A stretch of 64,000 nt of DNA, from assembly GCA_002869845.2 (NCBI GenBank), contig NEWS02000007.1, positions 195,320 through 259,319 on the forward strand, given 5' to 3'. This DNA is from Nitrospira sp. CG24B (GTDB lineage Bacteria > Nitrospirota > Nitrospiria > Nitrospirales > Nitrospiraceae). Every line of letters starts with the position of its first letter. The stretch's first letter is position 1. The position numbers and the translations under genes were made by a program. Below the pieces are notes generated by a model. The model searched no databases and was not told the DNA's origin. It was given only the letters and a program-made list of their open reading frames with translations. Shown piece by piece: positions 3,016 through 20,461 of this stretch.

Positions 3016-5538
3016 TCATTGCCACGCGGCTGTCAGGCTGCCGCTCTCGTCCCGCCAATGCGGCGTCCAAGCGAGGGTCACGAGCTTGACGGCAATGTTG
3101 GCTTTGGTGGGCTTAATTGAAATCGTTTCGAGCTTTTCGTTCAGCGGATCGGTCGCTGCGGCCAATGCCTCGCTTTCGGACTTGAATTGGGCTTCGAGAT
3201 CAGCCAGTTGCTGCTGAAGGGCTGCAACATTTTCTTCTGCCACACCAACATCCTTGGACTCCTTCATGACTCGACCGGCGCTCCGAACCGCCGTTGTGGC
3301 ACGTCCGATGTTCGAGGCGCTGATCGTCTTTCGTCCCATAAAGGCCCCAAGGATGGAGGCTCCGACAGAAATCGCCGCCTGCACCTGACTGGATCGGGAT
3401 TCAGCCTGCTGCTTCTCCTTTGCCAACTCAGCACGCCTGATCCGATCTTCCAGCGTCGCAATCTTCGGGGCATATTTCTGGCGAAGCATTTCAGCCCCCT
3501 TATCACGCTGTTCCCGACCCGTGTGCTGTAACCGGACTCGGAAATCCCGCTCGGACTCACCTGGAGTGGATATTTCCTTGGTGCTCGGACTCTTGAACAA
3601 CTCGACCTTTTGTGTTCGAAACAACCAGCCACCAAAATCCTTGTTCCAATCAGCATAACTCTTGGCCTTGCCGGCACTCACCGGCAAGGCAAGAAACTGA
3701 GCCTCCTCTTCCGGATCTCGCTCGAGATCGGCCACGGCCAACTCCGCTGCCTTGGCCTTGTCCCAGTCAACCGCGACAGGTCCGTCCTCGATGGGAGCCA
3801 ATACCGTCACATCCTGCGTGCGATCAACACCGCTCTTCGAATCGGAGAAGCGGATCTGTGATGAACCCAGTAGCATCGGGGAATAGACCAACTCGTTCCC
3901 TTCAGGTTTTGAACCACGCAGCGGGACGAAATGCTGCGGCACCTCCGGCGGCAGCATGGGACGGGTTGTCAATCCTGAGGACTGAGGATTGAGGATTGAG
4001 TGCTGAGCCCCAGGCGCCGCACTGTGTACTGTTCCCTTTTCACGCCTCACCGGATCCATCAACTGTTTAATCTGTGTTCTCGTCAGCGGGCCGCGGAGGT
4101 ACGACAGACACCAACGTGTCTCAAACACGACTGGTTCGTCCTCATGCACGTTGTTCATCAGAAAGATCCGATTGCCGAGACCAGCCAGCGTTTGCTCCAT
4201 GCGGCCCCGGTCAAACTTCTTGCCAGCACTGCTCGACGCACCTTCTAATCCCTCCAGCACACGAGCCTTGTCTCGTTCTGTCTGCAATCGTCCGATAAAC
4301 CAGGTCCCGGTGTTGGCCAGGCCCTTGTAGTCGAGATCCACGGGATTCTGCGTCGCCAGGACCACTCCAAGGCCGAAGGCGCGCGCCTGTTTGAGCAACG
4401 TCATCAACGGCAACTTCGAGGGAGGATTCGATACCGGCGGAAAGTAGCCGAAGATCTCGTCCATGTAGAGAAGCGCGCGCAGGCTGGTTGTTCCCGATTG
4501 CGCCCTCATCCATCCGACTATTTGACTGAGCAACAACGTCACAAAGAACATGCGCTCGGCATCATTGAGATGCGCGATGGAAAAGATCGCATGACGCGGC
4601 TTTCCTGCCGGTGTATAGAGCAACGACTGGATGTCCAGCGCCTCTCCTTCCAGCCAGGCCTGGAAGCCTGGTGCGGCAAGCAGATTATTCAGCTTCATTG
4701 CGAGAGCAAAGCGCTCCTTCGAAGGGAAGAAGGAATCGACGTCCATGACGCCAATCTTGGATACGGGAGGCGATTGAATCGCTTGGATCAATGACGCGAG
4801 ATCAAGATCCTCTTCTTTCTTCCAAGTCTGATCGAGAATCGTGGATAGCAGAATGTGCTCGCGGCTTTGGATCGGATCGGCTTCGACCCCGAGCAAACCG
4901 AGCAGGCTCGTGACGGTCGTGCTGATACGCTCGCGCAGCAACTCTCCATCTTCCCGCACATCGGCAGCCGGTGCGGCGAATGATTTCAAGATAGAGACTG
5001 GCAACCCGGCATTACTCCCAGGCGTATAGATGGCCACATCCGCTGCATCCCGCAGCCGCTGAATCCTAGCGCCATCCTGTTGCCAACCAGCCAAGCCCTT
5101 CGTCCAGAGTTCTGCTTGTGCCTGAGCGTAGTCTGCTGGTGACAAACCTTTTTTACGCGCGTCGTCTTCGTTGATCCAGGGTTGGAAGTCCTCGCCCTTG
5201 AGAGACGGGAACGTCAGCATCAAATTGCCGAGATCGCCCTTCGGATCAATGATGATGGCGGGGATGCTATCGATCGCAGCTTCTTCAAGGAGCGCCAGAC
5301 AAAGACCCGTCTTGCCGCTGCCGGTCATGCCGACGCAGACTGCGTGCGTCACCAGATCTTTTGAATCATAGAGCAGCCACCCCGGTTTGGCCTGCTTCGC
5401 CGCGAGATCATATGGCCGTCCCATATAAAAGACGCCGAGTTTTTCGAAATCCTCTGCGGTAGATGGAGCTGACGGCGTAGATTTCTTTGCGACACTCTCG
5501 GCCTTTGCATTCGAGTCGGTCTTCTTTGCTTTCGGCAT
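3016..5538 (-). CDS. HerA/FtsK-like P-loop ATPase with C-terminal coiled coil
   Basis: An 840-aa protein. A charged, Ala/Ser/Lys-rich N-terminus (1-30) precedes a conserved module with Walker A GMTGSGKT (about 70-77), IIIDPKGDLG (about 96-105), Walker B LLYMDEIFGYFPP (about residue 355) and the sensor-like ATQNPVDLDY. This is the DUF853/HerA central-domain type found in bipolar helicases and DNA-pumping ATPases. The last ~180 residues are rich in E, K, R and A with heptad character and probably form a coiled coil, interrupted by a Gly/Ala stretch (VGASILGAFMGRK) that might touch a membrane. No nuclease (NurA-like) partner is adjacent. Start ATG at 5538 follows AAGGGGGAT. Actual substrate unknown. 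Confidence 0.82.
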   Translation of the reverse strand: MPKAKKTDSNAKAESVAKKSTPSAPSTAEDFEKLGVFYMGRPYDLAAKQAKPGWLLYDSKDLVTHAVCVGMTGSGKTGLCLALLEEAAIDSIPAIIIDPKGDLGNLMLTFPSLKGEDFQPWINEDDARKKGLSPADYAQAQAELWTKGLAGWQQDGARIQRLRDAADVAIYTPGSNAGLPVSILKSFAAPAADVREDGELLRERISTTVTSLLGLLGVEADPIQSREHILLSTILDQTWKKEEDLDLASLIQAIQSPPVSKIGVMDVDSFFPSKERFALAMKLNNLLAAPGFQAWLEGEALDIQSLLYTPAGKPRHAIFSIAHLNDAERMFFVTLLLSQIVGWMRAQSGTTSLRALLYMDEIFGYFPPVSNPPSKLPLMTLLKQARAFGLGVVLATQNPVDLDYKGLANTGTWFIGRLQTERDKARVLEGLEGASSSAGKKFDRGRMEQTLAGLGNRIFLMNNVHEDEPVVFETRWCLSYLRGPLTRTQIKQLMDPVRREKGTVHSAAPGAQHSILNPQSSGLTTRPMLPPEVPQHFVPLRGSKPEGNELVYSPMLLGSSQIRFSDSKSGVDRTQDVTVLAPIEDGPVAVDWDKAKAAELAVADLERDPEEEAQFLALPVSAGKAKSYADWNKDFGGWLFRTQKVELFKSPSTKEISTPGESERDFRVRLQHTGREQRDKGAEMLRQKYAPKIATLEDRIRRAELAKEKQQAESRSSQVQAAISVGASILGAFMGRKTISASNIGRATTAVRSAGRVMKESKDVGVAEENVAALQQQLADLEAQFKSESEALAAATDPLNEKLETISIKPTKANIAVKLVTLAWTPHWRDESGSLTAAWQ
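3975..4007. repeat. heptamer tandem repeat inside the ATPase gene
   Basis: On the + strand the sequence reads CTGAGGA, CTGAGGA, TTGAGGA, TTGAGTG, CTGAG: nearly five 7-bp units. In the minus-strand protein it encodes the Ser/Gln/Asn-rich linker around QHSILNPQSSG. One unit more or less would shift the frame, so the tract is a potential slippage site. Confidence 0.75.
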
Positions 5539-5675
5539 GCCTATATCCCCCTTCGCTCGACAGTCAGGACAAATTTCGCGATATTGTAGTGGTCTAAAAG
5601 ACGAGCCGCAAGCGGGAGAGGAGTGATCAGATTAACCGGAAGGAGTAGGCGGCATGTATGGCAAGCCGCTGACCG

Positions 5676-6004
5676 TCACCATTCTTTGAAGATGATAAAT
5701 ACCGCCACCACAATCAGCGCGAACCCCACCACATAGTTCCACTTCAGCGCTTCTTTCAAGTAGACGACCGAGAAATCGAGAACACGACCAGCGTGATCAC
5801 CTCTTGGATTGTCTTGAGCTGCGCCGCCGTGAACTGCCCATGTCCGATCCGATTGGCCGGCACTTGGAAGCAGTATTCAACAAAAGCAATCCCCCAGCTC
5901 ACCAGAATCACCGTGAACAAGGGAGAGTCCTTGAACTTCAGATGGCCGTACCAGGCAAACGTCATGAACACATTCGAAATCGTCAACAACGCGACAGTCT
6001 GCAT
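5676..6004 (-). pseudogene. DUF486 (DMT-like) small membrane protein with a frameshift
   Basis: From the ATG at 6004, preceded by AAGGAGG, the protein begins MQTVALLTISNVFMTFAWYG and carries VPANRIGHGQFTAAQLKTIQE, typical of the ~110-residue four-helix DUF486 family. At about 5775-5780 the frame slips and would end early at 5756 with the tail SISRSST. The missing part, SVVYLKEALKWNY...VFIIFKEW, is present in another frame and ends at 5676. A one-base loss explains it. Transport substrate unknown. Either a recent pseudogene or a sequencing error. Confidence 0.75.
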
Positions 6005-6238
6005 CGGACACCGTCCTCCTTCTTTTAAGCAATGCTGGCATATTGTCACTTAGAATCGCCGGGCAGGAAAGGAAATGGGCAAATATTGGAAGGCACTAAT
6101 GGGTTGGCCGGAAAGGCATCAATTCACCTGGAGGAAAGATGCCTCTCTCAACGCAAAGAGCATATGAACATTGCAGATTGACAGTAGGATAATGGCGTGT
6201 GCGAGCTCTCATCTCCCAGGACCGCCCGATATCAGCCC

Positions 6239-6919
6239 TTACAATTCCTCTGGCCACTTTGCTTTCTCCAAACATTCAAGCCGCATGTTTGTCAAAATGT
6301 TTTCAGTCGTTTCAAGCAGAACATCTCCGGTGATTGCATGGTTATCCTCGTAACGGATGCCACCACCAACCTGACGAGGTTTATCAACAAAGGGAAAACG
6401 AACATCGTGGACTGCACTACAACGCAAATAACGATAGAGCATTTCACAAAGCGAGAAGCGTGGTAGATGTTCACGGAGATTGCTTTTGTTAAAGCCCGGA
6501 AATGGCCGCTGCTCCACGCATGTCAGGAAATCCTGAGGTGCAATGTACCGCATGCCATTTTTGATTTGAACTTCTTCACCATAGGCATCGGCAATAGCTT
6601 TCGAGATTTCTTTGTGATTCGTTAGTTCCAGGTAGTCTCCATGACTCTGAAATTGCGACCGTGGCCATTAAAGAAAGAAAAGGAGATCTATTTGTTCGTA
6701 AAAGTCTTTCTTCCCGGAATATTCCCGTACAACTCTTTTATAAGCTTTGTTATCTTTCTCGCCTGGATATCGGAGTGATCCCAAGGCTCCGATGTAACAA
6801 CTCATGACCAAGATGGCCTCAAGGTAGTATTTGGAGTCGGCTCTCAACATCTTGACCCTAGCAAGATTCTCTTGCCACCCCTCGAAGTACGCCTTGATGG
6901 TTTCACACTTTTCAGTCAA
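6239..6919 (-). pseudogene. unknown protein with HEPN-like motif, split by an in-frame TAA
   Basis: A TTG start at 6919 follows the good ribosome site AGAGGTGAT. The first 83 codons (MTEKCETIKAYFEGWQENLA...) end at TAA 6670-6668, but the same frame continues without another stop to 6239, giving about 225 residues in all. No ribosome site supports a restart at the next ATG (6553). The C-terminal half contains LYRYLRCSAVHDVRFPF, an R-x4-H pattern like the catalytic motif of HEPN ribonucleases. I do not recognise the full-length family; the HEPN reading is an inference from this one motif. It lies between other broken genes and a toxin-antitoxin locus. Confidence 0.55.
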
Positions 6920-6973
6920 GCCAGATCACCTCTCGGAATCCAGTATCAATAGTCCCAGGGCACATGACCATGG

Positions 6974-7000
6974 GGCTGAAGGCCACCAGCGCCTTCAGCC
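6974..7000. repeat. hairpin with 10-bp perfect stem
   Basis: GGCTGAAGGC and GCCTTCAGCC pair perfectly around a 7-nt loop. It lies about 200 bp past the uvrA stop codon. There is no T-run on either side, so it is not a classical terminator. Confidence 0.6.
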
Positions 7001-7048
7001 GCCTCGCCTATCTTTTCTCCAGGGGTGGAAGGGATGGATCTTTCGGAA

Positions 7049-7185
7049 GTCGCCATAGCGGGTTTTGGTGGATCCAGGCAAAACTGCCGCGTGCGACGGC
7101 ATGCGATGCATCATCGCGCTTCAGAGTCGCACGCGGCCAATCGTAGCGGTTCAGTTGCCGTCTCAACTCATCGCATTATGGCGAC
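7049..7185. repeat. nested inverted repeats downstream of uvrA
   Basis: Three nested perfect arms are seen: GTCGCCATA (7049-7057) with TATGGCGAC (7177-7185); GCCGCGTGCGAC (7086-7097) with GTCGCACGCGGC (7126-7137); and inside these GCGATG-cat-CATCGC. The whole 137-bp segment could fold as one long branched hairpin. It could be a REP-like or miniature palindromic element, a transcription barrier, or a structured RNA. Confidence 0.7.
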
Positions 7186-7202
7186 GCACGAACGATCCGC
7201 CC

Positions 7203-9710
7203 TTACAACCCTGCTTCTTTCAACACCTGTCCCGTATACGACCGCTTCGACTTGGCAATTTCTTTCGGCGGGCCTTCGGCGACGATTTCGCCGCCCCGAT
7301 CTCCACCCTCTGGTCCCAAATCGATGATCCAATCGGCGTTCTTGATGACATCCAGATTGTGCTCGATCACCAGCACCGTGTTCCCTGCTTCGACAAGTCG
7401 ATCCAGCACATCGAGCAATCGCTGCACATCGGCGAAATGGAGACCCGTTGTTGGTTCATCGAGGATGTACATCGTACGACCGGTCGCACGCTTGGAGAGC
7501 TCGCGCGACAACTTCACCCGTTGGGCTTCGCCGCCGGAGAGCGTCGTCGCGGATTGGCCAAGCTTCACATAGTGCAGGCCGACATCGTGCAGGGTCTGGA
7601 GCTTCGTCTTGATCAACGGAATGTGCTCAAAGAATTCCAAGGCATCGTCCACCGTCATGTTCAGCACATCGGCGATGCTCTTGCCCTTGTGAAGAATCTC
7701 CATCGTCTCACGGTTGTACCGTTGGCCCTTACAGACCTCACAGGTCACATAGACATCCGGCAAGAAGTGCATTTCTATCTTGATGAGCCCATCTCCCTGA
7801 CAGGCTTCGCATCGCCCACCCTTGACGTTAAAACTGTAGCGTCCTGGCTTATAGCCACGGACACGCGATTCAGGAAGATTCGAATAGAGATCGCGAATGT
7901 ACCCGAACAGGCCTGTATAGGTGGCAGGATTCGACCTCGGTGTCCGCCCGATCGGCGATTGATCGATATCGATCACCTTGTCGAGCCCATCAACCCCCCT
8001 TAGGTCCTTGCACCCATCGATCTTTGGCTTCTTGTGATAGAGCAGTTGCGAAAGCGAATGAAAGAGCACCTCCAGTACCAGCGTACTTTTTCCTGATCCG
8101 GAGACCCCCGTCACGCAGGTGAAGAGGCCCATCGGAATGCGCGCCGTGACGTTCTTCAGATTATGCTTTTGTGCCCCCACTACCGACAGTGTCCCTCTCG
8201 GCTTTCGATGCCGTTGAGGTACTGAGACGGTCTGGATTCCACGCAAGTATTGGCCGGTCAGCGAATTGGGGTCGCCCTTAATCTGCTGCGGCGTCCCCTG
8301 CGCGATGACATACCCACCTTGAGAGCCAGCGCCCGGCCCCATATCGAGAACATGGTCAGCCGCTTCCATCGTCTCGGCATCGTGCTCGACGACCACAACT
8401 GTGTTGCCGAGATCCCGCAATCTAAGCAGGGTTTGCAATAATCGACGATTATCGCGCTGGTGGAGTCCGATAGACGGTTCGTCCAGGATGTACAACACCC
8501 CCACCAAACCTGACCCGATCTGTGTGGCTAGCCTAATCCGTTGCCCTTCGCCGCCGGACAGCGTCGCTGCGGCGCGATCAAGCGTCAGATAGTCCAGCCC
8601 CACATTGACGAGAAACCCAAGCCGCTCCCGAATCTCTTTCAAGATCCGATGGGCAATGACAAGTTCACGGTCAGTAAACTTCAACGACAGGAAAAAGTCG
8701 GCAGCCGCGCGAACTGAGAGGCTGGTCACCTCGGCGATTGACTGCTTGGCCAATTTGATGGAGAGACTTTCTGGCCTCAGCCTCGCCCCATGGCAGACTG
8801 TGCAGGGTTCCAGCAGCGTGAAGTCCTCTTCCTCCGGACAGCCTGGAGGCATGACATACCCGATGCCGTCGCAAGCCGGACAGGCACCGTGCGGGCTATT
8901 GAAGGAAAACACCCGAGGCGTCACTTCCGGATAGCTCACGCCACATTTGATACAGGCCAGCTTGTCACTGTACAGACGGGTGTTCCCATCCTCGGGCAGG
9001 ACTGCGACGAGCCCGCCTGTCAGCTTGGTCGCGGTCTCAACCGAATCCGCCAGCCGGCGCATAAGCGCCTCGCCGGATTTCATCACCAGCCGATCGACGA
9101 TGATTTCGATTGTGTGTTTTTTCTGTTTGTCGAGCGTGACGTCCTCGCCCAGATCGGCAATCTTGCCGTCGATACGGGCACGGACATAGCCCGCCTTTCG
9201 CATCTCTAGTAATTCTTTCCGATATTCACCCTTTCGCCCACGCACGATCGGAGCGAGGACCTGGAACTTCATGCCTTCCGGCACTGAGGCAATCGCATCG
9301 ACCATTTGCTGGACCGTCTGTGCCGTAATCTCTTCTCCACATTGAAAACAGTAGGGGCGCCCAACACGGGCAAAGAGGAGCCGGAGATAATCGTAAATCT
9401 CTGTAACCGTGCCGACGGTAGATCTGGGATTATGACTGGTGCTTTTCTGCTCGATGGAAATGGCTGGAGACAAGCCTTCAATCGAATCGACATCCGGCTT
9501 TCCCATCTGTTCGAGGAATTGCCGTGCATAGGCGGAGAGCGACTCGACATACCGCCGCTGCCCTTCGGCATAAATCGTGTCGAACGCAAGCGATGACTTA
9601 CCGGACCCGCTCAAGCCAGTGATGACCACCAGCTTGTCGCGGGGAATCTCCACGTCGATGTTTTTGAGGTTATGCTCCCGCGCGCCCTTGATGATGATGG
9701 AATTTCCCAT
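7203..9710 (-). CDS. uvrA: UvrA, excinuclease ABC subunit A (short form)
   Basis: The damage-recognising ATPase of nucleotide excision repair. Two ABC modules are visible: Walker [10 protein letters not shown] near residue 31 with signature [12 protein letters not shown], and GVSGSGKST with [25 protein letters not shown] and [13 protein letters not shown] follow. Zinc-type cysteines occur in CIKCG...CPACDG, CTVCHG and CEACQGDG...[10 protein letters not shown]. At 835 aa it is about 100 shorter than the usual ~940. The loss lies between [10 protein letters not shown] and [15 protein letters not shown], where typical UvrA has a long segment. Start ATG at 9710 is in line with the conserved N-terminus ([16 protein letters not shown]) and sits only ~10 nt after a TATAAT box. 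Confidence 0.95.
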
Positions 9711-9719
9711 AGGCGCGGG

Positions 9720-9728
9720 ATTATACCA
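9720..9728 (-). promoter_or_regulatory. extended -10 promoter of uvrA
   Basis: On the minus strand TGGTATAAT gives an extended -10 (TGn plus consensus TATAAT). The expected transcription start falls within a few bases of the uvrA ATG and no ribosome site precedes it, so the uvrA mRNA may be leaderless. Confidence 0.55.
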
Positions 9729-9742
9729 CTCGCGCTTCATTC

Positions 9743-9787
9743 TTGACACCGTCTTATCGTACGTCTAGTATACGTACGATAAGACGG
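9743..9787 (+). promoter_or_regulatory. vapBC promoter and overlapping palindromic operator
   Basis: TTGACA (9743-9748) and TAGTAT (9766-9771) are spaced by 17 bp. A perfect inverted repeat covers spacer, -10 and start region: CCGTCTTATCGTACGT (9749-9764), 7-nt centre, ACGTACGATAAGACGG (9772-9787). Such a site is expected for autorepression by the antitoxin-toxin complex. Its left part also abuts the upstream end of the divergent uvrA promoter. Confidence 0.85.
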
Positions 9788-9796
9788 AGAGATAAT

Positions 9797-10066
9797 ATGC
9801 CCAAGGCCGCACTAAAAAAAGAAAAGTGGACGCTCTCGTTCGATCCGGCGCTGAAAAGCGTCGTGGTCAAGGCCGCTAAGCGTAGGGGAATGTATCCTGT
9901 GACTCTGCTTGAAAGTCTCGTGCGGGAAAAATTCAACCCGTATGGGCATACGGACGTAGACGACAGTGCCGCTTATGTCAGCGCGTTGCGGAAGCAGGGC
10001 CGCAAACAGTCCGATGATGCGTTTCTGAACGAGATTGAAGCATGGCAAAAATCTCGCTCCTCTTAG
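9797..10066 (+). CDS. VapB-type antitoxin
   Basis: An 89-aa protein starting MPKAALKKEKWTLSFDP. A short beta strand (KWTLSF) followed by two helices (ALKSVVVKAAKRRGM, PVTLLESLVREKFN) fits a ribbon-helix-helix DNA-binding fold; the acidic and polar C-terminal half would bind the toxin. ATG at 9797 follows GGAGAGAT. Its last 25 bases overlap the toxin gene, which implies translational coupling. The operator immediately upstream supports autoregulation. It is assigned as antitoxin mainly because of its partner. Confidence 0.85.
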   Translation: MPKAALKKEKWTLSFDPALKSVVVKAAKRRGMYPVTLLESLVREKFNPYGHTDVDDSAAYVSALRKQGRKQSDDAFLNEIEAWQKSRSS

Positions 10067-10416
10067 ATACCGACATTTTCATCGATTACTTCAATACTGG
10101 CCGGTTCCATACATTGTTCGATTCCAGCCGTTTCACGGTCTACTATTCAGCCATCACGAAAAAGGAACTCTTGACCAAGCCAGGGCTCCGTGACAACGAA
10201 CGCGCCTCCATTCTGGCCGAACTGGCCCAATGCCGCCTGATCACGCTTTCCGATTCCATCACCACACGATACTCCGACCTTCGCCGCCAACACCCGTCAC
10301 TTGAGAAAGGCGATGCCCTCATTGCCGCCACCGCCCTCGTCAAACACCTTCCCCTGATGACACGAAACAAACGGCACTTTCAAATAGTCCCCGGCTTGAC
10401 GCTATTCGGGGAGTAA
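10042..10416 (+). CDS. VapC-type PIN-domain toxin ribonuclease
   Basis: A 124-aa PIN domain. The acidic residues expected for metal binding are visible: D9 and D11 in LLLDTDIFID, E42 in KKELL, D91 in GDALIAATAL, followed by MTRNKRHF, typical of the last PIN strand. VapC toxins cut RNA, often tRNA or rRNA, when freed from the antitoxin. It overlaps the antitoxin gene by 25 bp and ends only 10 bp from the converging GHKL ATPase gene, with no terminator visible between them. Confidence 0.9.
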   Translation: MAKISLLLDTDIFIDYFNTGRFHTLFDSSRFTVYYSAITKKELLTKPGLRDNERASILAELAQCRLITLSDSITTRYSDLRRQHPSLEKGDALIAATALVKHLPLMTRNKRHFQIVPGLTLFGE

Positions 10417-10426
10417 GACTCGTGGA

Positions 10427-12022
10427 CTATGACCGCCTGCGAGACCTACGGCGCGGGCTATCGAGGGCTTCGCCCCAGCGAGCGAGAAACGCCGTTACGA
10501 ACTCGTGTTCTTCAGCGGGAGGCACAGCCAAACGCGCCAGGGCCAACGCGACGGCAAGGGCAATGTGATATCCCTCGGATCGAGAGGCCACGGCTCGACG
10601 ATAGGCGGGATGCGCGTCGTTGACGACGACGGTGGACTCAACAAGACGACCGAGGTCCGGATCTCCTTCATGCGATTCGAACCGGATACTGAGCCCGTAA
10701 TGACCCGGCCGCGATCGTCCTCTTGGTCCTGGAACGACAGCGACTCCGGGTGTGGATTCCGCCTGAGGGTTCGCCTCTCCTTGTGTTGCTTCAGGCGGCT
10801 GCGGGACTTCGTCAGGGTCCTGAGTTGCCTCCGGAGGAGTCGTCCCATCTTCGACGGCTTCCATACCGCTCATGACCGACGCGGCGAGAAAGCCCTGCCC
10901 GTTCTCCGTCGCACTGGATTGTCCGATGGGCAATCGCTTCTGCCCCCCGGCTCGCCGCTCGACCAGCGACGCCAGCAGTGGAAATTCTTCAGCGAGGTCC
11001 ACAAGGACCGTTTCCAGATCGCGCTCCATCGGCCGCACAGCTCGGCGGCCGGCTTTGTCTCCGGATTCACGGACATCTCCCCAATAGGCAAGCTGCTGCG
11101 AGACCGCCTCTTGAATCGCCTTGCGATACCCCAGATACAGCGCGCCCCGCGTCCCGACACGAACAAAATCTCCCTTGTTGAGCGTAAGGGCAACAGCCAG
11201 CGCCGGTGCCTCGATCATCCCGGCCATTCTGTCCGGGGCGACCGGCGTAATCCCCAACCAGTCCCATCCATGCTTGATCACCTTGCCGAATGTGCTGATC
11301 GCCAGTCCACGCTGATCGTCCGGAAACGGAGATTCGCTTCGCGCCAGATAGCCGACCGCCGATGGCTTGCGTTTGCGCGCCAGGCAGATCGCGAGTTTCG
11401 ATACCTCTACGCCGTGGACAGGCTGACGCTCCAATACTCGGCCATTGATCTCGAACCGGAAGCCATTCGGATAATGCGCCGCGAGCATTTCGTCAAACGC
11501 CGACTCCAGCAGGGGTTGATACTGTCGCCGCAGCGTCCCTTCGAGAAAGCCCTCGTCCAAGAGCGGCGAGAGCGCATTGTGCAGCTTGAGCTGCACCGCC
11601 GTGCCATGATCGGTCACCAACCCCGATGGTGGAATCCATTTCCACGGCGCTTTATGCCGTCCCGCCAAGTGCCAGCGGCTCGCCACATGTTCCTTACCCC
11701 GACGCGTTTCGGTGACCACATCTTCGCAGACCAGAAGCCCAAGCTTGATTCCGACTCCCGCGAATCCGATGCCGTGGCCCCGTGTCTTCGTGCTGGCGGC
11801 CAGATCGTGGTACCGTACCAGGTCCCGTCGTCTCATGCCTGATCCGTCGTCCACGATGGTCAACACCGACAACGCAGAGTCAGCCGTGAGCCGGAGACAG
11901 GTGGCACCGGAATCGAGCGAATTGGCGACCACCTCAGTCAAAATGGTTTCTTCGAGAGCGCCCGGATAGGCGTCGCGGAGATCTTCGAGCAAATGCTGCA
12001 GATCAACGCGCGTTTCGCCCAT
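10427..12022 (-). CDS. stand-alone GHKL (HSP90/MutL/MORC-like) ATPase
   Basis: A 531-aa protein with all GHKL boxes near the N-terminus: EVVANSLDSGA (N box), IVDDGSGM (G1), GHGIGFAGVGIKLG (G2). A middle region of about 200 residues has mixed alpha/beta character, then comes a low-complexity Pro/Glu/Gln/Thr linker with repeated PPEATQ, and a C-terminal domain with PGHYGLSIRFE. It is not a histidine kinase (no H box), nor GyrB or MutL by length. Similar stand-alone GHKL ATPases occur in accessory and defence loci, but the role here is unknown. ATG at 12022 follows GGGAG. It converges on vapBC and starts beside a uvrA relic. Confidence 0.75.
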   Translation of the reverse strand: MGETRVDLQHLLEDLRDAYPGALEETILTEVVANSLDSGATCLRLTADSALSVLTIVDDGSGMRRRDLVRYHDLAASTKTRGHGIGFAGVGIKLGLLVCEDVVTETRRGKEHVASRWHLAGRHKAPWKWIPPSGLVTDHGTAVQLKLHNALSPLLDEGFLEGTLRRQYQPLLESAFDEMLAAHYPNGFRFEINGRVLERQPVHGVEVSKLAICLARKRKPSAVGYLARSESPFPDDQRGLAISTFGKVIKHGWDWLGITPVAPDRMAGMIEAPALAVALTLNKGDFVRVGTRGALYLGYRKAIQEAVSQQLAYWGDVRESGDKAGRRAVRPMERDLETVLVDLAEEFPLLASLVERRAGGQKRLPIGQSSATENGQGFLAASVMSGMEAVEDGTTPPEATQDPDEVPQPPEATQGEANPQAESTPGVAVVPGPRGRSRPGHYGLSIRFESHEGDPDLGRLVESTVVVNDAHPAYRRAVASRSEGYHIALAVALALARLAVPPAEEHEFVTAFLARWGEALDSPRRRSRRRS

Positions 12023-12091
12023 AGCTCCCAGATTTCGGATTCCCGGTTTTGCCGATCAGAATGGGACCATCAGAGACGAATCTTGCCCATC

Positions 12092-12197
12092 TGATCGATC
12101 CCATGATTGGAACGAGTGGGGTGGCTTGGATCTGGACAGTGCAATTCTTGAGATTCTGCCCCCGTGCGCCATTTTCGATGACGACCGAATGACTCAT
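12092..12197 (-). pseudogene. relic of the 5' end of a uvrA-like gene
   Basis: From ATG at 12197 the frame reads MSHSVVIENGARGQNLKN then VQIQATPLVPIMGSI, alignable with the UvrA N-terminus ([33 protein letters not shown]). The match ends just where Walker A should begin. The upstream DNA also matches: CATAGGCCCGGGATTATA here, CATAGGCGCGGGATTATA before uvrA. It reads in the same direction as uvrA, so vapBC and the GHKL gene lie between two copies of a uvrA-type start. The pattern suggests a decayed second uvrA or a duplication. Confidence 0.7.
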
Positions 12198-12354
12198 AGG
12201 CCCGGGATTATAGCATGACGGAATGATCGTCCAGGCCGATGCGCACGAACCCATTCGGTTTTCGAATGGATATGGTAACAAGGGCTCGCAGAGCTCTACC
12301 GAGTGCTCGAAGCGAAGGATGTGAGGAAGCTGATGAACCCTTCAGACGCCGGCT

Positions 12355-13548
12355 TCAGGATTTCATCGTCTGGGCAACAAGCTCGTGCGGGTGTTCGAGG
12401 ATGCGCTTCAGCTCCGTCAAAAACTTCGCGCCCGTCACACCATCGATGGCCCGGTGATCGCACGACAGCGTCACCTGCATTCTACGGCCGGCCTTCACGG
12501 CGCCCGCAACAACGACCGGCACGTCCCGAACCGCACCGACGGCGAGCGAAGCGGCTTGCGGTGGGATGAGGACGGCGAGAAAATTGTCCACCCCGAACAT
12601 GCCAAGATTGGAGATTGAGAAGGTAGCACCACTGTATTCCTGCGGTTGCAGCCGTTTCTGTGTAGCCCGCTCGATGAGCGCCCGCGATTCAGATGAGATC
12701 GTTTCCAACGCCTTAGCACCACAATCACGAATGACGGGCGTGATCAGGCCGTCCTCCATCCCGACCGCAACGCCGATATCGACACGCTCATACCGCCTGA
12801 TCGCCTCGCCGGTATAGGACACGTTCAGTTCCGGATGCTTGCGGAGTGCCAGAGCCACGGCTTTGATGAGCAGATCGGTCATTGAAGGATGGGATTGCCG
12901 GTCTTTCTTGAACTGACGACGAAACTGCTCCGCCGCTTCCATATCGATCTCTCTCGTCAGATAGAAGTGCGGCACCGGGGCTTTGCTCTGCACCGTAGCC
13001 CTGGCGATGGCTTTCCGCATTTGAGTCAGGGGCTGATCGGTTCCGGCCGGCATGGCCGACGTGGCAACCCCTTGCGCGTTGCCCACATCCTCCTCGACGA
13101 TTCGCCCACCAGGACCGGTGCCGATCACCGTGGAGAGGTCGATCCCTCGCTCAGTGGCCAGGGCCTTGGCCCGCGGGGAGGCGATGATGCGATTCCCTTC
13201 TGTACTCAGAAGTGACGTACCAGGCGAGGTTGTCGATGCGGCAGCGGGCTTGGCGCTGGTCGATGCGACGGGCATGACCTTGTCGGACAAGGCTTCCGTG
13301 ATGTCTTCATCCGCCTCGCCGATGACGCCCAATAGTTTTCCAGACTCAACCGTTTCCCCGTTCTGCACGAGAATCTTCCGGAGAATACCGGAGGCAAACG
13401 CCTCAAGATCCATGACCGCTTTGTCAGTTTCGATTTCAGCGAGCGCCTCTCCGGCCTGCACCTGATCTCCCTCGCGCTTCTTCCATTCGAGGAGCACGCC
13501 CTCTTCCATCGTATCCGTAAGCTTGGGCATTACAACGCGGCTTGCCAT
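12355..13548 (-). CDS. pdhC: pyruvate dehydrogenase E2, dihydrolipoamide acetyltransferase
   Basis: A 397-aa protein that moves the acetyl group from lipoate to CoA. In order: one lipoyl domain (1-80) with the modified lysine in ETDKAVMD (~43), an Ala/Ser/Thr/Pro-rich linker, a peripheral-subunit-binding domain (ASPRAKALATERGIDLSTVIGTGPGGRI), and the catalytic domain with SCDHRAIDG. The ATG at 13548 gives the standard MASRVVMPKLTDTMEEG start. It is last in the E1-alpha, E1-beta, E2 operon, 13 bp after pdhB. No E3 (lipoamide dehydrogenase) gene is in the window. A 2-oxo acid other than pyruvate is possible, but the subunit type fits pyruvate best. Confidence 0.92.
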   Translation of the reverse strand: MASRVVMPKLTDTMEEGVLLEWKKREGDQVQAGEALAEIETDKAVMDLEAFASGILRKILVQNGETVESGKLLGVIGEADEDITEALSDKVMPVASTSAKPAAASTTSPGTSLLSTEGNRIIASPRAKALATERGIDLSTVIGTGPGGRIVEEDVGNAQGVATSAMPAGTDQPLTQMRKAIARATVQSKAPVPHFYLTREIDMEAAEQFRRQFKKDRQSHPSMTDLLIKAVALALRKHPELNVSYTGEAIRRYERVDIGVAVGMEDGLITPVIRDCGAKALETISSESRALIERATQKRLQPQEYSGATFSISNLGMFGVDNFLAVLIPPQAASLAVGAVRDVPVVVAGAVKAGRRMQVTLSCDHRAIDGVTGAKFLTELKRILEHPHELVAQTMKS

Positions 13549-13561
13549 GGCTCTCCTCCCC

Positions 13562-14530
13562 TCACAGTAGCGACTTGACGGCCTCGATCACGCGCGGCAG
13601 GTCCGGAATCGCCGCATCTTCCAGCGGACGGCAATAGGGCATGGGCACATCTTCACCGGTGACTCGCCGGATCGGACCGTCCAAATAGTCGAACGCGGTC
13701 GCGTACACGCTCTCAGCGATCTGCGCTCCCAGCCCACAGAAATACCAGCCTTCTTCGACGATCACCAGACGTCCGGTCTTTTTGACCGATGCGACAATCG
13801 TCTGGAGATCCAGCGGTTTGAGCGTGCGCGGATCGATCACTTCAACCTCGACTCCTTCGCGGCTCAGCGCGTCGGCGGCCTCCAGGACAAGCAACAGCAT
13901 TTTGGAATAGGCGACGATCGTGACATCCTGGCCCGTCCGTTTCACCTCGGCGACGCCGATGGGAATGGTGAACTCACCTTCTTGAACCTCACCCTTCGTA
14001 CCATACAAGAGCTGCGCTTCGATGAAGATGACCGGGTCGGGGTCTCGGATCGCGCTCTTGAGCAAGCCTTTCGCGTCATGCGGCGTAGCGGGCGCGATGA
14101 CTTTCAGTCCAGGGACATGGCAAAACCAGGCCTCAAGACTTTGCGAATGCTGTGCCCCCAACTGGTGGGCGGCGCTCCCGGGGCCACGGATGACGAGCGG
14201 CACCGACAGTTGTCCCCCGGACATATACCGGATTTTGGCGGCGTTATTGACAATCTGATCAAGGGCTACGATGCCGAAATTCATCGTCATGAGCTCCACA
14301 ATCGGATGCAGACCCGCCATGGCTGCCCCGATGGCCAGACCAGTAAAGCCAGCCTCGGTGATGGGTGTATCAATCACGCGCTGCGGCCCGAATTCCTCTA
14401 TGAAGCCCTTGCTGACCTTAAACGCGCCCTGATAGTAGGCGACGTCTTCGCCGATCAAAAAGACGCGCTGGTCTCGGCGCATTTCCTCGCGCATGGCCTG
14501 ATTCAGAGCTTCACGATACGACAACTCCAT
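13562..14530 (-). CDS. pdhB: pyruvate dehydrogenase E1 component, beta subunit
   Basis: A 322-aa transketolase-like protein: MELSYREALNQAMREEM, VFLIGEDVAYYQGAFKVSKG, DTPITEAGFTGLAIGAAMAGL, and the C-terminal transketolase domain (VIDPRTLKPLD, VEEGWYFCGLGAQIAE). With PdhA it forms the thiamine-diphosphate-dependent decarboxylase. ATG at 14530 follows GGAGTAGGAG; the frame is open upstream, but the extension (about 23 residues) shows no family similarity. It starts 7 bp after pdhA. Confidence 0.94.
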   Translation of the reverse strand: MELSYREALNQAMREEMRRDQRVFLIGEDVAYYQGAFKVSKGFIEEFGPQRVIDTPITEAGFTGLAIGAAMAGLHPIVELMTMNFGIVALDQIVNNAAKIRYMSGGQLSVPLVIRGPGSAAHQLGAQHSQSLEAWFCHVPGLKVIAPATPHDAKGLLKSAIRDPDPVIFIEAQLLYGTKGEVQEGEFTIPIGVAEVKRTGQDVTIVAYSKMLLLVLEAADALSREGVEVEVIDPRTLKPLDLQTIVASVKKTGRLVIVEEGWYFCGLGAQIAESVYATAFDYLDGPIRRVTGEDVPMPYCRPLEDAAIPDLPRVIEAVKSLL

Positions 14531-14537
14531 GGCTCTC

Positions 14538-15512
14538 CTACTCCTGTAAGACGTCAGCGTGCAGATCCGAGCGGGCCGGAAACGGACTTTCTTCTGCAAA
14601 CTTCACGGCAGCTCGCACAACTTCTCCGATTTCCCGCTCCAGTTGTTTGAAATCCGCCTCGTCCGCCAGCTTCTGAGCCATCATGGTGCTTTTCAATAAG
14701 GTAAGCGGATCACGTTTGCGGTACTCCTCCACTTCCTCTTTGGTCCGGTAGTGACCGTGCGCCGGGTCCGCCATCGAATGGCCCATGAACCGATAGGTCG
14801 TTGCCTCGATGAACCACGGCCCATGCCCCGCACGGACCTGCGCCACCACCCGCTGCATCGCCGAACGAACCGCGAGCACATCCATGCCATCCACTGATTC
14901 AGCCGCGATGCCGTAGGATCGAGCAGTTTCGGCTACATCCCCATACAACGCGATGGCCCGTTCGGCCGGAGTGCCCATGCCATAACGATTGTTCTCACAG
15001 ATAAAAATCACCGGCAGTTTCCACAAGGCAGCCAGGTTAAACGCCTCGTGTGCCTGCCCGCTTGGCAGCGCCCCTTCACCGAAAAAACAGACCGTGACCA
15101 AATCCAGAGATTGATACTTATTCGCAAAGGCCAGACCCGTCGCGAGCGGGATATGGCCTCCGACGATGGCATACCCGCCCATAAACCGGCGCGGCAGATC
15201 GACCAGGTGCATCGATCCGCCCTTGCCTTTACAGAGGCCGGTCGCCTTACCAAACAACTCGGCCATGACCCGTCCAGGATCGGACCCGCGCGCAAGACAA
15301 TGTCCATGGTCGCGGTAGGCGCTGATGACGTAATCGTCCGGTCGAAGGGAGGCGATGGCCCCGACCGCAATCGCCTCTTCGCCGATGTACAGATGAAGAA
15401 AGCCGGCGATCTTCGCAAGGGCGTACATCTCCGCCGATCTCTCTTCGAATCGACGGATCAGCAACATCTGACGATACAGCGAGAGAAGATCAGCTGTGTC
15501 CATATTGACCAT
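14538..15512 (-). CDS. pdhA: pyruvate dehydrogenase E1 component, alpha subunit
   Basis: A 324-aa thiamine-diphosphate enzyme. Conserved parts are LLIRRFEERSAEMYA, HLYIGEEAIAVG, ISAYRDHGHCLARG, GGSMHL, the cofactor motif and the phosphorylation-loop-like GHSMADPAHGHYRTKEE. The cofactor motif reads FFGEGALPSGQAHE...CENNRYGMG; most relatives have GDG at the start, so a magnesium-binding aspartate is replaced by glutamate. First gene of the three-gene operon. Two in-frame ATGs (15512, 15503) are possible and neither has a clear ribosome site; a hairpin lies just upstream. Confidence 0.93.
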   Translation of the reverse strand: MVNMDTADLLSLYRQMLLIRRFEERSAEMYALAKIAGFLHLYIGEEAIAVGAIASLRPDDYVISAYRDHGHCLARGSDPGRVMAELFGKATGLCKGKGGSMHLVDLPRRFMGGYAIVGGHIPLATGLAFANKYQSLDLVTVCFFGEGALPSGQAHEAFNLAALWKLPVIFICENNRYGMGTPAERAIALYGDVAETARSYGIAAESVDGMDVLAVRSAMQRVVAQVRAGHGPWFIEATTYRFMGHSMADPAHGHYRTKEEVEEYRKRDPLTLLKSTMMAQKLADEADFKQLEREIGEVVRAAVKFAEESPFPARSDLHADVLQE

Positions 15513-15518
15513 TATGCA

Positions 15519-15537
15519 AGTTGGCTCAAAGCCAACT
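15519..15537. promoter_or_regulatory. hairpin or operator just upstream of pdhA
   Basis: AGTTGGCT-caa-AGCCAACT is a perfect 8-bp inverted repeat 7-25 nt before the pdhA ATG, where a ribosome site would be expected. It could be a repressor site or an RNA hairpin controlling translation. Confidence 0.45.
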
Positions 15538-15785
15538 CAACCAGAATCATACGACAACAGAAACGGGCTGCATGCGGCAAGCTGGATGTAGCCCGACCAG
15601 CTATGCGTGTTCAAAAGGCCTACTAATGATAGCCTCCCCGACCGTTCCGGATTCTCGGCTCGATTCGCCCCGTCAATTTTCAGATTGGATCTCTAATCGT
15701 CACGGAGCTGCTCACAAGAGCCGACCACCTGATCTCAAGATGACTCACCTTGACAAAGCTTGAAACCGGGTGCTACCACCGTCAA

Positions 15786-16562
15786 ATGGTGGGAACCGAC
15801 CCTCGTCCATTGACACAGGATTCCAAGGCCCCGGCGAAGGTGGTGTCCACCTGGTCCGGCCAGGCCCGCGAAGATGCCGTACAGCGGATGTTCACCTCCA
15901 TCGCCGGCGTCTACGACCTGAACAACACGCTGTTGAGTTTCGGCCTGCATTACCATTGGAAGAAGATTACCGCGTCCTTCATTACCCCCGTCGGACGGGG
16001 GACCGCGCTCGATGTCGGATCCGGTACGGCCGACCTTGCCCTCCTGCTCGAGTCTCGAATGGGACCCAAGGGACGTGTGATCGCATCAGACCTGAACTAT
16101 GCGATGCTGGCCGAAGGCCTCAAGAAGATCGGTGGCAAAGGACTCACCGACAAAGTCACCTGCTTGCAGGCCAGTGCGGAACACCTGGGGTTCGGGGACA
16201 ACACCTTCGATGCAGTCACTACCGGCTTTTGCATGCGAAACGTCGGGGATTTACCAGGCGCCGTGCGGGAAATTCGCCGTGTCATGAAGCCCGGTGGGCG
16301 CTTTGTGTGCTTGGAGTTTTCGCGTCCGGTATTCGGTTGGTTACGAACCTTGTATGATTGGTATTCGTTCAAACTGCTGCCCTGGGTCGGCACCATCGTC
16401 GCCCGTGATCGCACCGGCGTCTACGAGTACCTTCCCGCGTCCATCCGGACATTTCCCGACCAAGAACGGTTATGCCAGGTTCTACGCGATGCCGGGTTTC
16501 GTCAGGTGTCGTACAAAAACCTCAGCGGTGGCATTGTCGCCATTCATATCGCAACAAAATAG
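15786..16562 (+). CDS. MenG/UbiE-type quinone C-methyltransferase
   Basis: A 258-aa SAM-dependent methyltransferase of the family that methylates demethylmenaquinone (MenG) or the ubiquinone precursor (UbiE). Motifs: AREDAVQRMFTSIAGVYDLNN near the start, ALDVGSGTADLALLLE (motif I), GFCMRNVGDLPGAVREIRRVMKPGGRFVCLEFSRP (motifs II-III) and a C-terminal GGIVAIHIATK. A TTG at 15750 would add 12 residues; I prefer the ATG at 15786 though neither has a strong ribosome site. It is divergent from pdhA and 9 bp before a radical SAM gene, so it may be the first gene of the unusual cluster to its right. Confidence 0.87.
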   Translation: MVGTDPRPLTQDSKAPAKVVSTWSGQAREDAVQRMFTSIAGVYDLNNTLLSFGLHYHWKKITASFITPVGRGTALDVGSGTADLALLLESRMGPKGRVIASDLNYAMLAEGLKKIGGKGLTDKVTCLQASAEHLGFGDNTFDAVTTGFCMRNVGDLPGAVREIRRVMKPGGRFVCLEFSRPVFGWLRTLYDWYSFKLLPWVGTIVARDRTGVYEYLPASIRTFPDQERLCQVLRDAGFRQVSYKNLSGGIVAIHIATK

Positions 16563-18394: not shown

Positions 18395-20461
18395 ATGTAT
18401 AAGACAATCTATATTCCGGTCGATAACTCTGACCATTCGAATACAGCAGTGGATGTCGGCGTTCATTTGGCAAAAACCTTCGGTTCCCGGATCGTAGGGA
18501 GCCACGTCTACGCCGCGAAGATGCACGATAAGCGCTTCAAGCAGATGGAAGCGGGCCTCCCGGAGGAATACCATGACGAGAAGGAGCTTGACCGTCAGCG
18601 CCAGATCCACGATTCGCTGATTACCCGAGGGCTCCAAATCATCACTGACTCCTACCTCGACTACGTCGATAAGAAATGTAACGAAGCGAATCTCCCCGTT
18701 GAGCGGCGATCGCTCGAAGGACGTAACTGGAAAGTGCTGGCCGAAGACATCAACACCAACGGGTATGACCTCGTCATCATGGGCGCGTTGGGGGTCGGGG
18801 CGGTCAAAGACAGCGTCATCGGCAGCAACACAGAGCGCGTGGTCCGCCGGGTCCGTAACTCCGACATGCTGATCATCAAGAACGTTCAGCCAATAACCGG
18901 CGGAAAGATCGTCGTGGCTGTCGACGGCAGCCCCTACTCCTTCGGCGGACTGATGACCGGCCTAGCGCTGGGCAAGGCCTTCAACATGCCGGTGGAGGCG
19001 ATTTCAGCCTTCGATCCCTACTTCCACTATGCGGCATTCCACAGTATTTCCGGTGTCCTGAACGAAGAAGCCGGCAAAGTCTTTCGTTTCAAGGAACAAG
19101 AAAAACTGCACGAAGAAATCATCGACAGCGGCTTGGCTAAGATCTACCAGTCTCATTTGGACATTTCCCGAGAAATCGCCCAGGCCGAGCAAACGGATGT
19201 GAAAACGACGTTGCTGGACGGCAAAGCCTTCGAAAAAATCATTCAGTACGTCAGGAAAGATGTTCCTGCCTTGCTCATCATCGGGCGTATCGGCGTCCAT
19301 AGCGACGAGGACATGGACGTCGGCAGCAACACCGAGAATCTGTTGAGGAGCGCCCCCTGTAATGTGCTGATCTCCAACCGAAAATACGTGCCTCCGATCG
19401 ATACACAGGCCGAGTACACCATTGCCTGGACGGAAGAAGCGCTGCGGCGGATGGAAAAGATCCCGGTGTTCGCGCGCGGCGTGGCGAAGACGGCCATTCA
19501 TCGGTACGCCATTGAAAAAGGGCATACCATCATCAGTAATACCGTCGTTGACACCGCGATCGGACACATTCTTCCAAAAGGCGCCATGGACGCTATGCGT
19601 GCCCTTGGCGGTAGTTTGGACGCAGCGGGTATCGACCGTGACAAGATGCAAGCCGATGAGGGCGTGACCAAAGATCTCATGGGTCCGACATTGAGTGGAA
19701 TCATGACCCAGATCGTTGAGGAGAAACCCAAAGAGATCAGCGCCTCCACACAGGCCTACCTAGACCGCATGGGGCAAACCTATTTCGTCTGTGACGGCTG
19801 CGGCTACATTGGGAAGGGAGACAGCCCGGTCAAATGTCCGGTGTGCAGTGCGGATGGGACGAAATTCAAACAGGTCGATAAGAAGATTTTCGAAGTAGCC
19901 GCGACAACTGAAGGTGAATTGGAAACGGACGTGGCCTACGACGACGTGCCGATGCAATGGACCAAAGATGCAAAAGAAGCGATCCGTGCCGTGCCGGCTG
20001 GCTTCCAACGGAGACGTGCGAAGGCCAGGATTGAAAAGAGCGCGCGGAAATTAGGCATGACGACCATCACGCTTGAATATGCGGCGCCGACCATTCAAGA
20101 GGCCGCATCCGAAGACTATACGCCGATTTTCTCCAACAAAGGCACCGGTACCTCGCCGGTAGCGGAAGCCACCGTTGCAGCGTCGAACGGGAATGAGGCA
20201 AATGGTCATATCGAAGCCGCCTCACCCTACACCTGGACGGACGACGCACAAGCCAGATTGGATCGAGCTCCGGAAGGCTTCATGCGGGATTGCACCAGAT
20301 CGCTCATTCTCAAGCATGCCGAAAAAATCGGCGCGACCCTGATCACGATTGAGGTCGCCGATGAAGGGATCGAGCAGGCAAAGGGGTATATGGCCGAAGC
20401 GATGAAGACTGGCAATCTCAAGGACATGATTGCCGACCTCACCGGAAAAGGACGCGGATAA
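18395..20461 (+). CDS. double universal-stress protein fused to PCP_red domains and a zinc ribbon/rubredoxin-like knuckle
   Basis: A 688-aa fusion. Usp domain 1 (1-163) and Usp domain 2 (170-328) both keep the ATP-binding pattern G-2x-G-9x-G-S (G130/G133/G143; G297/G300/G310). They are followed by a PCP_red module (344-393, WTEEALRRMEKIPVFARGVA), a rubredoxin-like four-cysteine knuckle (C466, C469, C481, C484: CDGCGYIG, CPVCSADG), a second PCP_red-like module (521-565) and a third (613-662), separated by an Ala/Gly/Asn linker. PCP_red is known from the C-terminus of the dark protochlorophyllide reductase subunit BchB/ChlB. Cytoplasmic by sequence. Flanked by two radical SAM genes. I infer a stress- or redox-responsive scaffold; its function is unknown. 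Confidence 0.9.
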   Translation: MYKTIYIPVDNSDHSNTAVDVGVHLAKTFGSRIVGSHVYAAKMHDKRFKQMEAGLPEEYHDEKELDRQRQIHDSLITRGLQIITDSYLDYVDKKCNEANLPVERRSLEGRNWKVLAEDINTNGYDLVIMGALGVGAVKDSVIGSNTERVVRRVRNSDMLIIKNVQPITGGKIVVAVDGSPYSFGGLMTGLALGKAFNMPVEAISAFDPYFHYAAFHSISGVLNEEAGKVFRFKEQEKLHEEIIDSGLAKIYQSHLDISREIAQAEQTDVKTTLLDGKAFEKIIQYVRKDVPALLIIGRIGVHSDEDMDVGSNTENLLRSAPCNVLISNRKYVPPIDTQAEYTIAWTEEALRRMEKIPVFARGVAKTAIHRYAIEKGHTIISNTVVDTAIGHILPKGAMDAMRALGGSLDAAGIDRDKMQADEGVTKDLMGPTLSGIMTQIVEEKPKEISASTQAYLDRMGQTYFVCDGCGYIGKGDSPVKCPVCSADGTKFKQVDKKIFEVAATTEGELETDVAYDDVPMQWTKDAKEAIRAVPAGFQRRRAKARIEKSARKLGMTTITLEYAAPTIQEAASEDYTPIFSNKGTGTSPVAEATVAASNGNEANGHIEAASPYTWTDDAQARLDRAPEGFMRDCTRSLILKHAEKIGATLITIEVADEGIEQAKGYMAEAMKTGNLKDMIADLTGKGRG

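Follow-up and report, generated by a model that had tools for sequence, protein, structure and literature searches.

What does a GHKL ATPase that stands alone beside a toxin-antitoxin pair do in Nitrospira, a nitrite-oxidising bacterium? The gene lies in the window, by which we mean the whole 64,000-nucleotide stretch of the Nitrospira sp. CG24B genome analysed here (contig NEWS02000007.1, positions 195,320 to 259,319), and the initial annotation, made from the sequence alone, had suggested a function in defence. We tentatively favour, at slightly below even chances, the reading that the protein is an accessory, exchangeable GHKL-S5 ATPase that would work as an ATP-operated dimeric DNA clamp, much as MORC and MutL do, most likely recognising, compacting or silencing foreign DNA. 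The features of the window that bear on this question are the following.

7203–9749, minus strand: uvrA (Pfam UvrA_inter, E = 9.3e-37); homology to relatives starts at about 9710
9720–9749, minus strand: promoter-like site of uvrA, GTGTCA-18-TATAAT, by consensus match only
9749–9787, no strand: inverted repeat of 19 nt in the vapB–uvrA gap, 95% complementary
9797–10066, plus strand: vapB-like antitoxin, 89 aa, start placed by eye, no Pfam match; independent cargo
10042–10416, plus strand: vapC (PIN) toxin, 124 aa (PF01850, E = 1.5e-11); independent cargo
10427–12022, minus strand: GHKL-S5 ATPase gene, 531 aa, ATG start; Bergerat domain ~5–185, S5-like domain ~186–325, low-confidence linker ~356–442, C-terminal domain ~443–520, basic tail 521–531
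12099–12215, minus strand: decayed uvrA-start duplicate, immediately upstream of the GHKL gene (tblastn, codons 1–32, E = 0.71 when taken alone)
12355–15512, minus strand: pdhC-pdhB-pdhA, further accessory cargo
15750–16562, plus strand: ubiE/menG methyltransferase, the other conserved border (PF01209, E = 9.9e-70)

The initial annotation called a GHKL ATPase gene with all ATP-binding boxes intact, and both parts of this call hold. The 531-aa product matches HATPase_c_3 (residues 25–118, E = 1.7e-10) and HATPase_c (E = 6.6e-6), each above the Pfam gathering score. Across an alignment of 24 sequences, residues E30, N34, D58, G60, G62, G82, G84, G86, G89, G91 and G140 are invariant and T141 is nearly so; in this superfamily, such positions make up the N, G1, G2 and G3 boxes. 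The boxes, including the catalytic Glu and Asn, place the protein in the GHKL superfamily (Pfam, 24 sequences), and the S5-like transducer behind the ATPase domain, with its conserved basic residue, places it among the GHKL-S5 proteins; K247 and K283 of this domain are both invariant in the same alignment. The frame is a selected gene rather than a chance ORF, because orthologues are 58–95% identical and the median dN/dS is 0.097 (12 pairs, with large synonymous distances), indicative of strong purifying selection. By region, dN/dS amounts to 0.054 for residues 1–185, 0.092 for residues 186–330 and 0.28 for the linker, and is lowest, at 0.033 (11 pairs), for residues 443–525, so that the C-terminal domain is the most constrained part of the protein.

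Of the 175 family genomes, 48 have a near-full-length copy at 60–100% identity, and the copies in G120 and G103 each contain a single in-frame stop; several other family genomes contain pieces of the gene, for example G057 (residues 425–531), G104 (residues 1–52) and G094 (broken up). The phylum sample added four copies in another family within the order, at 58–61% identity, along with two at 38–39%. The scan of genome contigs resulted in 70 loci in total, including 25 Nitrospira-type loci (L032–L056, 69–95% identity), more distant copies at 36–38% identity (L058–L062) and one broken copy (L063). There were also many low-scoring family matches covering residues ~26–82 at roughly 30–40% identity in frames mostly about 600 aa long, which look like MutL, as checked for the window's genome (L002). 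One 61% identical copy (L057, positions 10001–11596) is located among unrelated neighbours on a contig labelled Betaproteobacteria, reflecting either cross-phylum transfer or a binning error. A viral origin was rejected, as the protein had zero matches in 50,697 phage records and in 72,556 plasmid records, and none of the 40 pattern matches in viral contigs was a relative. Foldseek comparison with viral models returned an unnamed 494-aa protein first, as well as RIIA, topoisomerase and Hsp90-like proteins.

In Nitrospira, the gene sits between ubiE and uvrA, mostly oriented towards uvrA. The interval measures 6,040 bp in the window and comprises pdhA-pdhB-pdhC, the GHKL gene and vapC-vapB. The accessory block suspected in the initial annotation is supported by relatives in which the same interval is empty or filled with other cargo. 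The sites lacking an intact GHKL gene are among 20 regions that we selected from 30 genomes without one, and proportions among them are therefore not frequencies. Six are empty, with 35–202 bp between ubiE and uvrA (L142, L144, L149, L155, L156, L159), and others contain pdhABC (L145, L152), pdhABC together with vapBC (L146), vapBC (L153, L160), or a metallo-beta-lactamase gene along with an uncharacterised 343-aa gene (L150, L151, L154). Pfam searches of ten further cargo ORFs identified type I restriction subunits in L040 and L043, Fic in L171, a zeta toxin adjoining the GHKL gene in L038, a superfamily 1 helicase-like protein in L157 and a thiamine-pyrophosphate enzyme in L152; the cargo ORF of L147 had no Pfam match and that of L173 weak ones only. 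Such varied cargo marks the interval as an accessory hotspot with both defence-like and metabolic genes, extending over positions 9749–15750 of the window and seen in L032–L056, L142–L161, L162, L170–L174 and L181. The initial annotation had opposed housekeeping contexts, which would speak against defence, to variable islands, and both are found here: the flanking ubiE and uvrA are housekeeping genes, whereas the stretch between them is a variable island.

Other genes of the region are recorded here in their own right. The ODP-family metallo-beta-lactamase and the Pfam-less 343-aa protein form a recurrent pair (L056, positions 5726–7526; also L046, L048, L049, L051, L150, L151 and L154). A 688-aa protein with Usp stretches and repeated PCP_red domains (window positions 18395–20461) is kept near ubiE in most Nitrospira loci. 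In L148 (genome G057, positions 5126–13109), several large uncharacterised ORFs lie between a GHKL fragment and uvrA.

The GHKL gene has been gained, lost and exchanged among Nitrospira loci. A tree built from three flank proteins of 45 chosen loci requires at least 15 changes in the presence of the gene, and its well-supported branches yield 10 independent pairs; L035, L040, L043, L050, L055, L173 and L143, with too little flank, were left out, and L054, a duplicate of L172, was counted once both here and in the uvrA-start counts below, though the two are listed separately in the tail comparison. GHKL distances track flank distances (r = 0.78, Mantel p = 0.0001, 22 loci), with some clear departures from the trend. 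The window and L049, for example, are sisters with flank proteins 97.7% identical and GHKL proteins 81% identical. The DNA of L049 is window-like up to ubiE (mostly 93–98%, with one 300-bp step at 86%), resembles L046 and L048 past ubiE, including the lactamase pair, a uvrA fragment and the GHKL gene, and is closer to the window again from uvrA onwards. The foreign sequence in L049 extends from just past ubiE to uvrA; the whole block was imported.

Copies of the uvrA start accompany many of these genes. By blastn, the duplicate in the window corresponds to positions −18 to +49 of uvrA (76% identity, E = 1.3e-8). Among the 28 distinct loci with both a GHKL gene and a full uvrA start, 13 have such a fragment directly upstream of the GHKL gene, in some cases including TATAAT, and three more (L038, L173, L174) have one elsewhere in the interval. 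Counted at E ≤ 1e-5, uvrA-start copies are present in 16/28 GHKL loci versus 0/17 GHKL-free sites, with a Fisher p-value of 6e-5 that is optimistic because the loci are related. L041, L042, L051 and L181, which have no full uvrA start, fall outside the 28 loci, but L051 and L181 do show a uvrA-start fragment by tblastn; the GHKL-fragment sites L143, L148 and L161 are in neither column, and L161 has a uvrA fragment. Several loci without a uvrA fragment have a separate promoter-like stretch upstream of the GHKL gene, read by eye. The empty site L144, compared with the near-identical occupied locus L033, matches the left copy as far as the region of the start codon and the right copy beyond it, a pattern that fits insertion or excision, in either direction, through recombination between uvrA-start copies.

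One alternative to the foreign-DNA clamp is a DNA-damage accessory factor acting with UvrA, that is, a MutL-like clamp that would aid excision repair and be co-expressed via the captured uvrA start region. GHKL proteins have DNA-repair roles elsewhere, and in nearly all Nitrospira loci compared the gene immediately precedes uvrA in the same orientation or is separated from it only by vapBC or other cargo; the 13 upstream uvrA-start fragments, some with TATAAT, are also in line with co-expression. The initial annotation had seen no MutL context, which is correct insofar as the real MutL of this genome is encoded elsewhere (contig C15, with DNA_mis_repair and MutL_C, the latter at E = 4.6e-41), but overlooks uvrA, the following gene in this orientation, as a DNA-repair neighbour. 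However, every other cargo of the interval likewise ends up beside uvrA, no uvrA was found near the GHKL gene in L163–L169, L175–L178 and L057, and all 30 searched genomes without an intact GHKL gene have uvrA, which together make a UvrA helper unlikely.

Alternatively, the gene could be the cargo of a uvrA-anchored cassette array, retained mainly since the site recombines easily and serving a niche function outside defence and repair. The uneven occurrence of uvrA-start copies (16/28 versus 0/17, in rows that are not independent), the occupied/empty pair L033/L144, the whole-block import in L049 and the varied cargo would all be expected in that case. We nevertheless regard this explanation as quite unlikely, given that purifying selection is strong across large synonymous distances and that the GHKL gene persists at other sites in other lineages.

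The highly constrained C-terminal domain has no family match in Pfam or NCBIfam, and its L058 version yields one chance match (CdsD_PD2, E = 0.067). A separate model of the domain (pLDDT 78, pTM 0.48) has no significant fold match, with the best Foldseek E-value at 0.45 (PprI, selecase) and the best Z at 3.9 (selecase); Hsp90 C-terminal domains reach a Z of 3.7, which is not significant either, and the model gives no more than a hint of a zincin-like or Hsp90-like origin. An N-x-x-H-P motif near the C-terminus also occurs in four of the 20 remote GHKL proteins examined (L064, L071, L073, L090), perhaps reflecting a common C-terminal module.

Beyond this domain, 43 of the 52 rows compared have a basic tail, with a net charge of +3 to +8 in the final 11 residues. 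The nine rows without a basic tail are the truncated frame L055, L041 at a contig end and seven relatives of ≤39% identity, which stop at, or just beyond, the C-terminal domain. In six of these seven relatives, a gene for a ~150-aa protein lies directly downstream of the GHKL gene, overlapping it by 4 nt in five. The encoded partner is weakly DUF1016_N-like (best Pfam E = 0.006, below the cut-off; PADLOC PDC-S02, E = 5e-5), and was not found in 14 Nitrospira-type genomes or in G353, with one of 16 genomes matching (G335). Neither a nuclease domain nor a partner was found for the Nitrospira GHKL versions. We infer that the tail and the DUF1016_N-like partner may provide the same nucleic-acid contact, and it is the tail charge and the partner alone that suggest DNA binding.

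The initial annotation had pointed to MORC/HSP90-like ATPases, and the predicted fold agrees for the ATPase-S5 part, with Z about 16 to both: residues ~3–325 match Hsp90 (Z up to 16.2), tied with MORC3 (Z 15.9) and MORC2 (Z 15.8). Hsp90 chaperones fit the predicted fold equally well, and the protein could thus be a chaperone of the Hsp90 type that serves one particular client and does not act on DNA. TRAP1/Hsp90 structures are the top Foldseek matches of the model, Hsp90 comes first when the GHKL profile is compared with the PDB by sequence (an S5-only profile gave two chance matches), and the weak, non-significant C-terminal likeness to Hsp90 points the same way. Although the N-terminal and middle-domain fold is shared with Hsp90, HtpG and TRAP1, the Nitrospira protein has a shorter C-terminus and a basic tail, and scores 17.7 bits on the HtpG equivalog model against a cut-off of 371. 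Moreover, the N box TEVVANSLDSGA is more MutL-like, and the basic tail and HTH-like partner suit nucleic acid better. This possibility therefore appears rather improbable and ranks after that of cassette cargo.

The likeness to MutL is concentrated in the N-box region, where the NCBIfam mutl model matches residues 27–69. MutL identity was nonetheless ruled out: the score is 22.8 bits versus 180 needed, Pfam detects neither DNA_mis_repair nor MutL_C, and the genome has a separate MutL. A sensor histidine kinase was likewise ruled out, with Pfam showing no HisKA-type domain at E-values up to 1. The eukaryotic MORC2, MORC3 and MORC4 resemble the protein across the GHKL and S5 module (residues ~3–325, Z 15–16, rmsd 4.3–5.0 over 267–281 residues), but the identity is 13–15% and the C-terminus of the Nitrospira protein differs. 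The MORC family S5 motif, as given by Iyer et al. 2008 (PMC2292703), is GhXhhpXXRhl. The Nitrospira protein reads G-L-A-I-S-T-F-G-K-V-I, with K for R and S at one hydrophobic position in 24/24 sequences (G239...S243-T244..G246-K247), and is therefore not classed as a MORC. That paper describes families of prokaryotic MORC and paraMORC proteins whose genes lie for the most part in restriction operons, although some paraMORC3 genes stand alone (PMC2292703). Prokaryotic MORC and paraMORC1–5, as described there, share with our protein the GHKL-S5 architecture with a C-terminal extension, sporadic distribution and lateral transfer (PMC2292703). They differ in gene context: in the window, no SFII helicase, methylase or nuclease gene shares the operon or is present between uvrA and ubiE, whereas L040 and L043 do have type I restriction genes in this interval. 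A GHKL domain is also the N-terminus of the Shedu phage-defence protein VcSduA, which has a PD-(D/E)xK nuclease domain at its C-terminus (PMC12137116); by Pfam, no PD-(D/E)xK nuclease domain was detected in the Nitrospira protein. None of the PADLOC-DB 2.0.0 component models matches the protein up to E = 10, and in our literature search no paper title or abstract opening describes it or the uvrA-anchored Nitrospira hotspot.

The adjacent toxin-antitoxin pair reported in the initial annotation is present, with a PIN-domain vapC and a vapB-like gene on the plus strand, the latter recognised by position and recurrence because it has no Pfam match. The 19-nt inverted repeat is probably the vapB operator; since it touches the promoter-like site of the divergent uvrA, VapBC autoregulation could also affect uvrA. 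The vapC and GHKL genes are convergent, with 10 bp between their ends, and therefore belong to separate operons. That the ATPase is a third component of the vapBC system, as the adjacency in the window might suggest, is almost certainly wrong: vapC occurs in 8/26 rows with the GHKL gene versus 3/19 without (Fisher p = 0.31), a paired test on the flank tree found no vapC-GHKL association, and vapBC lies on either side of the GHKL gene across loci and also occurs without it (L153, L160). The link drawn in the initial annotation is thus not supported, and vapBC is an independent neighbour.

We now return to the DNA clamp. In GHKL-S5 proteins, such as MutL, MORC and Hsp90, ATP binding closes an N-terminal gate, and the proteins clamp on DNA or protein. 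In the Nitrospira protein, the Bergerat domains at the N-terminus would close once ATP is bound, the catalytic basic residue would probably be one of the two invariant S5 lysines, K247 and K283, and the dimer would be held together by the conserved C-terminal domain. Contact with DNA would be made by the basic tail, replaced in distant relatives by the translationally coupled DUF1016_N-like protein. ATPase activity, the dimer clamp, DNA binding and the defence role are all presumed. The N box TEVVANSLDSGA, the basic tail, the HTH-like partner and the mobile life of the gene favour a role connected with DNA and conflict, and the type I restriction, Fic and zeta-toxin genes found elsewhere in the interval are consistent with action on foreign DNA. 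On the other side, there is no match to a defence family, the interval also holds metabolic genes (pdhABC, the thiamine-pyrophosphate enzyme), and hotspot turnover is not peculiar to defence genes. Our best reading is an accessory MORC/MutL-like DNA clamp with a plausible role in defence. A bolder version, which we consider doubtful, is that of a single-gene genome guardian in an integrase-free cassette system: the GHKL gene, like other cargo, would be lodged upstream of uvrA between uvrA-start copies, where homologous recombination could insert it, remove it and swap it across species, and would encode a new type of MORC-like immune clamp, acting alone and directed at foreign DNA via the basic tail or, in more distant branches, the coupled HTH-like partner.

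MORC-type ATPases are known chiefly as eukaryotic silencing factors and, in bacteria, as parts of restriction systems. If the clamp reading is true, Nitrospira would possess a stand-alone, selected and horizontally exchanged GHKL-S5 clamp that needs no nuclease or helicase of its own. In nitrifiers, which are hard to study genetically, the uvrA-anchored interval provides a defined place in which to search for accessory and defence genes, and L033 and L144 constitute a natural occupied/empty pair for comparison.
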